Assembly: GCF_008692195.1 (NCBI RefSeq)
Contig: NZ_RXOM01000054.1
Span: forward strand, 1-64,000
Length of the DNA stretch: 64,000 bases
Reading direction: 5' to 3'
Source: Salegentibacter sp. R32
GTDB lineage: Bacteria; Bacteroidota; Bacteroidia; Flavobacteriales; Flavobacteriaceae
Shown: positions 14,292-16,655 of the stretch, piece by piece
Layout of the letters: each line of letters opens with the position of its first letter
Numbering within the stretch: the stretch's first letter is position 1
Made by a program: the position numbers and the translations under genes
The notes under the pieces: generated by a model
Databases searched by the model: none
Told to the model about the DNA's origin: nothing
The model's input: only the letters and a program-made list of their open reading frames with translations

Positions 14292-15383
14292 GTGAATAAA
14301 CAGCGCAAAATTATACATATTGATATGGACGCGTTTTACGCTTCTGTAGAGCAATTGGACAATCCTGAATTGCGTGGAAAGACCATTGCGGTTGGTGGCG
14401 GTTCTAAGCGTGGTGTGGTAAGTGCTGCCAGTTATGAAGCTCGAAAATTTGGAGTGAAAAGTGCGATGAGCGGTTCGATGGCAAAAAAGCTTTGTCCGCA
14501 TCTTATTTTTGTAAAATCTAATTTTGACCGCTATCGGGAAATTTCACAACGCATCAGAAATATATTTTTTGAATATACAGATTTGGTGGAGCCGCTGTCA
14601 CTAGATGAAGCTTATTTAGATGTTACTGAAAACAAAAAGGGAAATCCCAGTGCGACTTTAATTGCAAAAGAAATTAGGGCGAAGATTAAAGAAAAAACGG
14701 GATTAAATGCTTCGGCAGGAATTTCTATCAATAAATTTATTGCGAAAGTTGCCAGCGATTACAACAAACCTAACGGACAGAAAACGGTAAATCCTGAAGA
14801 GGTGGAAGAGTTTCTGGAGCAATTGGAAATCAGAAAATTTCATGGTGTAGGAAAAGTTACTGCTGAAAAAATGTATCAGCTTGGGATTTTCACCGGAAAA
14901 GATTTAAAGACCAAATCTGAAGAATTTTTAACGGAGAAATTTGGAAAAAGTGGACCATATTATTACAAAGTGGTTCGAGGTATTCATTTAAGTGAAGTAA
15001 AACCTAACCGCATTAGGAAATCATTAGGAGCGGAACGTACTTTTTCTGAAAATATTACTTCTGAAATTTATATGTTGGAACGCTTGGAACATATCGCAGA
15101 GGAGATTGAACGCCGATTGGCAAAAAGTAAGGTTGCTGGAAAAACCGTAACACTCAAAATAAAATATAGCGATTTCACCTTACAAACCCGAAGTAAAACC
15201 ATCTCTTATTTTATTTCTTCCAAAGAGTTGATTTTAGAGGTCGCTAAGGAGCTTTTATACCAAGAACGAATGAAAGATTCAGTAAGGTTATTGGGCATTT
15301 CTCTTTCCAACCTCAACACTGATAAAAAGGAAAAACCGGAAGAAAAGGAGGAGGTTTATGTACAGCTTAGATTTGAGTTTTAG
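14292..15383 (+). CDS. dinB: DNA polymerase IV (Y-family translesion polymerase)
   Basis: 363 residues, normal length. The palm motif HIDMDAFYASVEQ (about 9-21) and SLDEAYLDV (about 102-110) supply the catalytic Asp/Glu residues. Two helix-hairpin-helix-like elements follow near 178-200 (KFHGVGKVTAEKMYQLGI), then the little-finger domain from about 240. The C-terminus QLRFEF looks like a beta-clamp-binding peptide. The start codon is GTG with no visible ribosome binding site, and no later Met precedes the active site. It copies damaged DNA; no SOS box was identified. The Fic operator array begins 26 bases after its stop. Confidence 0.95.
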   Translation: MNKQRKIIHIDMDAFYASVEQLDNPELRGKTIAVGGGSKRGVVSAASYEARKFGVKSAMSGSMAKKLCPHLIFVKSNFDRYREISQRIRNIFFEYTDLVEPLSLDEAYLDVTENKKGNPSATLIAKEIRAKIKEKTGLNASAGISINKFIAKVASDYNKPNGQKTVNPEEVEEFLEQLEIRKFHGVGKVTAEKMYQLGIFTGKDLKTKSEEFLTEKFGKSGPYYYKVVRGIHLSEVKPNRIRKSLGAERTFSENITSEIYMLERLEHIAEEIERRLAKSKVAGKTVTLKIKYSDFTLQTRSKTISYFISSKELILEVAKELLYQERMKDSVRLLGISLSNLNTDKKEKPEEKEEVYVQLRFEF

Positions 15384-15409: not shown

Positions 15410-15538
15410 TTTTGCAATACCACAACCACTATTGCAAAATTTTTAATTATTTTGCAATAAGCAGATAGCTATTGCAAATAAAACTCATATTTTGCAATAA
15501 GGCTTTTTCTAATGCAAAAATAAAGTTCTAATGCAAAA
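15410..15538 (+). promoter_or_regulatory. Phased array of seven TGCAA-core sites upstream of the Fic gene
   Basis: Seven 10-bp motifs start at 15410, 15430, 15450, 15470, 15490, 15510 and 15529: six with exactly 20-bp spacing and the last at 19. Sites 1, 3 and 5 read TTTTGCAATA. Sites 2 and 4 read the reverse complement TATTGCAAAA (last base T in site 4). Sites 6 and 7 read TAATGCAAAA. The ~10-base spacers are unrelated to each other, so these are separately conserved binding sites rather than copied tandem repeats. Site 7 contains the ATG of the Fic gene. The layout suggests cooperative binding on one DNA face, probably by the Fic protein's own C-terminal winged helix; the binder is an inference. 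Confidence 0.8.
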
Positions 15539-16655
15539 TTTTAAATCTGGTCTGTACGTAAATCAAGGACATTACAAAAGTTTTCAACCTAATTTAATCA
15601 ATAAAGAATGGAAACTGGAAGATATGGAATTACTCAGCCTATTATCTAAAGCTGATAGACAATTAGGAAGGCTAGACATGTACAGTGAACATATTCCAGA
15701 CATAGATTTGTTTATTAGCATGCACGTTCTTAAAGAAGCTACACAAAGTAGTAAAATTGAAGGAACACAAACCAATATGGAAGAAGCCTTATTAGATAAA
15801 GAAGATTTGAGTAATGAGAAGAAAGATGACTGGGAAGAAGTTCAAAATTATATTTCAGCAATGAGTAGAGCCATAGAAATGCTGAAAGAAATTCCTTTTT
15901 CAAGTCGATTAATTAAAGAAACTCATAAAATTCTTTTACAAGGGGTAAGGGGAGAACATAAACAACCCGGTAATTTCAGAAAAAGTCAAAACTGGATAGG
16001 AGGCGCTTCTATTAATGATGCTACTTTTATTCCACCAGTTCATACAAGTATAGGGGATTTGATGAGCGACCTAGAAAAGTTTACACATAATCAAGAATTC
16101 TTTTTTCCAGATTTATTGAAAATTGGTATTATTCATTATCAATTTGAAACTATTCATCCTTTTTTAGATGGAAATGGAAGGGTAGGAAGGCTTTTAATTA
16201 CTTTATATTTAGTAAATAAAGATATCCTTAAACAGCCTATCTTATATTTATCAGACTTTTTTGAGCGCAACAAAAATCTCTATTACGAAAATTTAATGCG
16301 AGCAAGGACGAAAAATGATATTAAACAATGGCTTAAGTTTTTTTTAGTCGGGATTATTGAAACTGCAAAAAAAGGTGTTGCTACTTTTGATGAAATTTTA
16401 AAACTAAAACAAAATTCAGAATTGAATATCCAAACATTGGGTTCACGGGCAAATAATGCTCAGAAAATACTTCAACACCTATTAGTAAAACCAGTAATAG
16501 ACGTAAAAAAGATAGAAGAGATTACAAATGTATCTAAACGAACAGCCTACAATTTACTAGATGATTTAGAACAGCTCGATATTCTGGAAGAAGTAACAGG
16601 TAGTAAACGTGGCAAAGTATATGTTTTTAAACAGTATGTAAATTTATTTAGATAA
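15531..16655 (+). CDS. Fic family protein (class II, putative AMPylator) with C-terminal winged helix
   Basis: 374 residues. The N-terminal Fic/DOC_N region has the inhibitory helix motif SSKIEG (about 73-78; pattern S/T-x-x-x-E-G/N). The Fic core motif HPFLDGNGRVGR is complete at about 209-220, with His and the Asp/Asn/Arg residues present, so AMP transfer from ATP to a hydroxyl residue is plausible. The last ~75 residues (NAQKILQHLLVKPVIDVKKI, NVSKRTAYNLLDDL) form a winged helix-turn-helix. No separate antitoxin gene adjoins it, fitting self-inhibition. The start codon lies within the seventh site of the upstream array, implying tight autoregulation. Target protein unknown. Confidence 0.9.
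   Translation: MQNFKSGLYVNQGHYKSFQPNLINKEWKLEDMELLSLLSKADRQLGRLDMYSEHIPDIDLFISMHVLKEATQSSKIEGTQTNMEEALLDKEDLSNEKKDDWEEVQNYISAMSRAIEMLKEIPFSSRLIKETHKILLQGVRGEHKQPGNFRKSQNWIGGASINDATFIPPVHTSIGDLMSDLEKFTHNQEFFFPDLLKIGIIHYQFETIHPFLDGNGRVGRLLITLYLVNKDILKQPILYLSDFFERNKNLYYENLMRARTKNDIKQWLKFFLVGIIETAKKGVATFDEILKLKQNSELNIQTLGSRANNAQKILQHLLVKPVIDVKKIEEITNVSKRTAYNLLDDLEQLDILEEVTGSKRGKVYVFKQYVNLFR

Follow-up and report, generated by a model that had tools for sequence, protein, structure and literature searches.

Among the Fic proteins met in the literature searched, the closest counterpart of the system analyzed here is CccR of Yersinia pseudotuberculosis, a Fic-helix-turn-helix (HTH) toxin that is also reported to be an autorepressor, acting through two inverted half-sites in a manner that requires dimerization (PMC9755527). 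It was the sole Fic autorepressor among them. CbFic2 is a class II Fic protein whose C-terminal HTH binds DNA; random DNA was studied in that work, and no specific operator is reported in the cited part of it (PMC10628234). For Escherichia coli Sofic, AS1, a small antitoxin, has been described, as has a contact of the C-terminal domain with the AMPylase domain; the cited part of the report mentions neither DNA binding nor an operator, and the regulation of Sofic toxicity was termed elusive there in 2025 (PMC12249575). Dimers have been reported for both Sofic (PMC12249575) and CccR (PMC9755527).

Here we analyzed a fic locus of Salegentibacter sp. R32 lying in a 64,000-nucleotide stretch of contig NZ_RXOM01000054.1 (the window). 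The locus resembles that of CccR, since both involve a class II Fic protein with a C-terminal HTH and inverted half-sites in its own promoter region. The two differ in that CccR is served by a single pair of 10-bp half-sites separated by 26 bp, whereas the window carries seven at an alternating 20-bp pitch; moreover, CccR is secreted by a T6SS, and no recognition code is reported for it in the cited part of the source (PMC9755527). The preliminary description of this DNA had held that no Fic operator of such design was known. Autorepression of a Fic-HTH protein through two half-sites is already in print with CccR (PMC9755527), and the statement has to be narrowed accordingly; the many-site 20-bp lattice does differ from it. 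No literature report of the 20-bp alternating lattice or of a Fic recognition code was found, a weak negative given that most subscription journals and all preprints were uncovered.

The Pfam domains Fic_N and Fic were recognized in the window protein, and its best solved relatives are SoFic chains (PDB 3eqx and 3zcn), with which it shares fold, domain order, and intact catalytic and inhibitory motifs. The PADLOC SoFic model matched residues 12 to 373 with 407 bits (E 2e-122), and the NCBIfam SoFic equivalog model, with a cut-off of 550, gave 176 bits, so the window Fic is related to that equivalog but is not the same one. The patterns HPFx[DE]GN[GK]R and [ST]xxxE[GN], which we take to define the catalytic motif and the class II inhibitory motif, are both intact. 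An AlphaFold model built with seven sequences (the window and L027 to L032) was fair overall (mean pLDDT 65.8, pTM 0.63), with block means of 90 to 94 over residues 291 to 350 and of 73 and 86 over the wing. In this model, the C-terminal part folds into a winged helix whose recognition helix is capped by S335 (Table 1), as had been proposed from the DNA letters. Judged from these motifs and profile matches, the window Fic appears to be an intact protein of the SoFic type (anti-phage Sofic), whose function as a toxin is probably abortive infection.

The seven half-sites in front of fic were present at the positions and in the orientations given earlier (F R F R F R R), and the region had an alternating-chain score of 16, a value that 500 dinucleotide shuffles, averaging 4.3, never approached beyond 6. 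The spacing, described before as exactly 20 bp, is so for five steps but not for the sixth, which measures 19 bp and at which the alternation is broken. By eye, the spacers, in order CCACAACCAC, TTTTTAATTA, AGCAGATAGC, AAAACTCATA, AGGCTTTTTC, and ATAAAGTTC, have no common sequence, in line with the earlier view that they are unrelated, and the fic ATG at 15531 indeed falls inside the last site. Site matches at no more than one mismatch numbered 35 in the whole window versus 22.8 expected, a count reached by 2 of 100 shuffles; single sites are thus nothing remarkable, and it is their arrangement that stands out. In the 4.08-Mb genome, the pair pattern TTTGCANTA-N9-11-TANTGCAAA occurred at three places, all within the array. 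Of the matches to TTGCAATA-N9-11-TATTGCAA, two lay in the array and one was a lone pair elsewhere, at C48:6946. No TTGCA site was seen by eye just downstream of the window fic.

Table 1. Features of the fic locus in the window, and second arrays found downstream of fic in homologous loci
Feature	Position	Strand	Remark
Gene immediately upstream of the array, dinB-like (DNA polymerase IV)	14292..15383		by eye
Proposed operator array, seven 10-bp half-sites	15410..15538	none	20-bp pitch, last step 19
Site 1, TTTTGCAATA	15410..15419	+	exact
Site 2, TTTTGCAATA	15430..15439	-	exact
Site 3, TTTTGCAATA	15450..15459	+	exact
Site 4, ATTTGCAATA	15470..15479	-	one mismatch
Site 5, TTTTGCAATA	15490..15499	+	exact
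Site 6, TTTTGCATTA	15510..15519	-	one mismatch
Site 7, TTTTGCATTA	15529..15538	-	one mismatch; covers fic start codon and codon 2
fic gene, 374 aa, SoFic type	15531..16655	+	Fic_N, Fic, and C-terminal winged helix
Inhibitory-helix motif SSKIEG, residues 73-78	15747..15764	+	class II pattern
Catalytic motif HPFLDGNGR, residues 209-217	16155..16181	+
Winged helix-turn-helix domain, residues 304-366	16440..16628	+	AlphaFold model
Recognition helix 336-348 and cap S335	16533..16574	+	S335, R337, and N341 co-vary with half-site bases
Second array downstream of fic, L028	5133-5245		precedes sulfatase-like gene (by eye)
Second array, L057	+1140 to +1207 from fic start
Second array, L066	+1137 to +1209 from fic start
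Second array, L086	+1176 to +1225 from fic start

Among 299 family genomes, 22 yielded a Fic relative in protein searches at an E value of no more than 1e-40; at no more than 1e-100, relatives turned up in 48 of 395 genomes of the phylum and in 39 of 395 of the class, the genome of the window included in each case. From 86 homologue loci (L004 to L089), three without a start (L014, L015, and L082) and 11 below 47% identity (L016 to L026) were left out, and the remaining 72 were taken as Bacteroidota on the strength of the named loci L027 to L032. Alternating arrays scored above all 20 shuffles in 61 of the 72 fic promoters and in 20 of 25 promoters from loci fetched later, so most homologous fic loci do carry an array, contrary to what would have refuted the earlier reading. 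The chain search presupposes a period of 40 or 41 bp in real and shuffled sequences alike; without that assumption, direct repeats still peaked at 40 bp (39 of the 72 loci, with 3.8 expected from shuffles) and at 41 bp (37 loci, with 2.2 expected). The loci at which the array did not exceed shuffles were L007, L010, L013, L045, L050, L051, L058, L059, L061, L070, and L081 (11/72) and, in the later group, L127, L130, L133, L139, and L140 (5/25).

Among relatives that are 74 to 82% identical, L005, L006, L028, L029, and L062 carry TTGCA arrays above shuffles, the array of L027 is above shuffles with letters that are mostly TTGTA, and L007 has visible TGCA sites with a score that is not above shuffles. 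In homologues at about 70% identity and below, the architecture is kept and the letters TTTTGCAATA are replaced by others. The scan of flavobacterial genomes for TTTTGCAATA that had been proposed would thus miss most of the family, since it is the architecture and not the wording that persists in distant homologues. The dyad spacing is about 20.0 bp in the window clade and mostly 20.5 bp in the TTATTTAAG clade. In L040, the fic homologue contains one internal stop codon, yet its promoter array is above shuffles. L072 (genome G855) has a very long array, from about -400 to -36 relative to fic, with visibly duplicated longer blocks, and growth by block duplication is likely at this locus.

Eight plasmid homologues from other phyla were inspected as well. 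Because just two of them exceeded shuffles, namely L159 and, with two sites, L162, we limit the claim of an array to the Bacteroidota set. L159, from a Microvirga plasmid, has four alternating CTTATTATCG-like sites before a 43% identical Fic, and from this locus the lattice may extend beyond Bacteroidota. In L161 and L163, TTATTTAAG-like words were seen by eye and did not exceed shuffles, which leaves hints in Alphaproteobacteria.

The array was then compared with other promoters. A chain score of at least 6.5 was reached by 58 of the 72 fic promoters and by 18 of the later 25, versus 1 of 42 other promoters, all of the latter taken from the window and L027 to L031, and the single scoring control is the second cognate array beside fic in L028. 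Locus-specific matrices gave chains of at least two sites in 0/60, 0/60, 0/61, 0/61, and 0/57 control segments. A three-site TTGCA array was found in 3 of 299 family genomes, at nine places and at fic in each genome, while the reversed control pattern matched none; the possibility raised before, that the array accompanies unrelated genes, was not borne out in these genomes. Of 295 class genomes, a single one had the pattern CTTATTTAAG-N12-14-CTTAAATAAG, located some 400 bp upstream of the fic gene there, and the reversed control of this pattern matched one other genome, G749. Both of these searches used exact patterns and are insensitive, as illustrated by a fourth family genome, G238, which the three-site search missed; the sites at its fic, a relative at 78% identity, are weaker and do not match the exact pattern. 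On 23 viral contigs having a site pair, no fic was found in the stretches examined, and by eye these were mostly isolated pairs. One viral contig, L110, shows three TATTGCAATA-like words in steps of about 20 bp around position 361, with no fic in the stretch examined.

In Bacteroidota, the -7 promoter element has the consensus TAnnTTTG. A box of this type was within reach in 36 of the 79 loci of the combined set, at +3 to +4 (14 loci) or +7 (4 loci) from one kind of dyad, at -5 to -7 (12 loci) from the other kind, and otherwise placed in 6. There was no single phase of the box on the lattice (Rayleigh R 0.13, p 0.53, 36 loci), and the offset clusters were noticed only afterwards. No TAnnTTTG box was seen near any of the seven TTGCA/TTGTA-type loci with a scored array, and the window promoter was not located; for the window, repression by promoter coverage is thus a supposition. 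Could the array instead activate fic or work as a positive-feedback switch? Some sites lie far upstream, to about -400 in L072, as activator sites can. We nevertheless consider activation unlikely, since the sites extend through the start region, with the last one on the ATG in the window, since they surround or overlap the -7-like box in many other loci, which is a usual position for repression, and since CccR is a repressor (PMC9755527).

A same-strand frame of at least 60 codons, ending no more than 60 bp from fic or running into it, was present in 8 of 16 array-less loci versus 8 of 81 loci with an array. This fits an arrangement in which an array-less fic would sit in an operon without a promoter of its own; such frames can also arise by chance. 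In the array-less locus L045, fic directly follows an upstream frame, without a gap, that resembles by eye the S subunit of a type I restriction system, and an annotated restriction S subunit stands beside fic on Synechocystis plasmid pSYSX (L165). An empty-site test at the dinB-like gene showed neither pyk nor fic within 1.5 kb of dinB in four relatives, two of them of the same genus. In G053 and G273, both from this genus, no fic relative was found at E 1e-40, nor was pyk within 1.5 kb of dinB. Just downstream of fic, a second cognate array was found in 4 of 60 loci (Table 1). It might permit bridging or loops, or it might serve the next gene instead.

To relate the array letters to the protein, the half-sites of 61 loci were set in a common frame counted from the dyad, T6 A7 n8 T9, followed by the variable bases 10 to 13. 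This TAnT-[10-13] frame fits the half-sites of the homologue arrays, the specificity block being GCAA in the window, and when the scaffold alone was used to set it, 60 of the 61 training cores stayed the same. Mutual information in the training set (58 non-redundant proteins), the values of which are inflated by relatedness among the proteins, ranked R337 top for bases 10 and 11, S335 for base 12, and N341 for base 13. For bases 6, 7, 8, 9, and 14, the top protein columns lay elsewhere than in the recognition helix, no helix column ranking top for base 8, and bases 6, 7, and 9 hardly vary. At residue 337, R went with GC in 6/6 cases, P or V with A11 in 34/35, S with G11 in 4/4, and A with T11 in 5/6, and K was divided between T11 (5) and G11 (4) among nine. 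At residue 335, S or T went with A12 in 55/55 cases and N or H with C12 in 5/5; at residue 341, K went with G13 in 19/23 and D or E with C13 in 3/3. The natural variant L027, 79% identical to the window protein, has K337 and the half-site TATTGTAA in place of TATTGCAA.

The prediction rule was fixed in writing before 25 further loci were fetched. On these, it was correct at 16/19, 16/19, 18/19, and 14/19 of the positions that could be scored. Altogether this gave 64 matches, as compared with a permutation mean of 53.7 and a maximum of 65, and 3 of 5,000 permutations were as good; the baseline is high because one type, K337 with D or E341, accounts for many of the held-out loci, which makes the test less diverse than its size suggests. 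Misses were L125 (R337 but TTTTAC), L134, L144, and base 13 of L138 and L135. The combined set comprised 79 loci after L040 (no helix residues) and L134 (only two sites) were left out, and 74 once near-identical proteins were removed. Over the 373 columns of these 74 proteins, R337, S335, and N341 again ranked first for bases 11, 12, and 13, respectively. For base 10, Q2 was the best predictor and R337 the second; in the window clade, the Q2 codon itself lies in the last site. These data suggest that residues 337, 335, and 341 would largely predict the letters of the lattice.

A conserved array would also be expected if a separate host-encoded regulator bound it and fic were merely its target. 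We regard such a regulator as quite improbable on three grounds. Firstly, in a partial Mantel analysis of 71 proteins, the half-site letters followed the recognition helix of the adjacent Fic when the rest of the protein was given (partial r 0.52, 0/2,000 permutations), but not the rest when the helix was given (-0.10). Secondly, L028 has window-type letters together with a window-type helix. Thirdly, other targets would be expected of a host regulator, but the three-site array was at fic only in the 3 of 299 genomes having it. L028 belongs to Leadbetterella, which we take to lie outside the flavobacteria. The earlier proposals that the sites are under selection for protein binding and that Fic itself recognizes them both gain from the co-variation between array letters and helix.

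The inverted pairs might alternatively form RNA leader hairpins that mask the start codon, since each F-R pair could give a 10-bp stem in a covering transcript and the last site includes the ATG. This is very hard to maintain, because many loci with a TAnnTTTG box have most of their sites upstream of it, and thus untranscribed from that box, and because RNA pairing leaves the match between half-site and DNA recognition helix unexplained. That the array is a functionless by-product of tandem duplication, for which the duplicated blocks of L072 might speak, can practically be dismissed, since the window spacers are unrelated and the orientation alternates, homologues retain the architecture while the letters change along with the protein, and the held-out prediction contradicts it, provided that this outcome also stands in a larger set.

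Since the helix predicts the letters of the adjacent array and, among the genes of the genomes searched, fic alone has the array, self-recognition is the best reading. We hold with considerable confidence, on the strength of these comparisons, that the array would be a dedicated fic operator read by Fic itself and that it would serve negative autoregulation of a SoFic-type toxin. Four elements of this explanation were computed directly, namely, the array, its conserved architecture, its co-variation with the encoded protein, and its restriction to fic within the genomes searched. Binding, repression, cooperativity (filament or loop formation included), and what relieves repression are inferred. 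The operator would work as follows. One C-terminal winged helix per protomer would bind one half-site, the 4-base specificity block after TAnT being read mainly by residues 337, 335, and 341. A dyad lattice of 20.0 to 20.5 bp with alternating half-sites would make the sites face one side of the helix and create two kinds of two-fold axis. Fic dimers would each bridge two half-sites and sit side by side so that neighbors touch, which could make their binding cooperative. An array occupied in this way would cover the start codon as well as the promoter region, keeping toxin expression low.

A further possibility, which we put forward as a doubtful one, is that Fic is held harmless as dimers parked on its cognate array, in some genomes on both sides of the gene, and that the array is an infection sensor. 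A phage that degrades or strips host DNA would then remove the lattice, and active toxin would be freed and fic derepressed at once.

Taken together, the reading of the array as an operator for negative autoregulation by Fic means that a branch of the SoFic family, across at least several Bacteroidota groups, is very probably self-controlled through a private DNA lattice. The DNA target would become readable from the protein sequence via three helix residues, and natural protein-operator pairs are available for studying the evolution of DNA specificity. It also becomes directly testable whether Fic binds and represses, and whether its binding to DNA is linked with toxicity.
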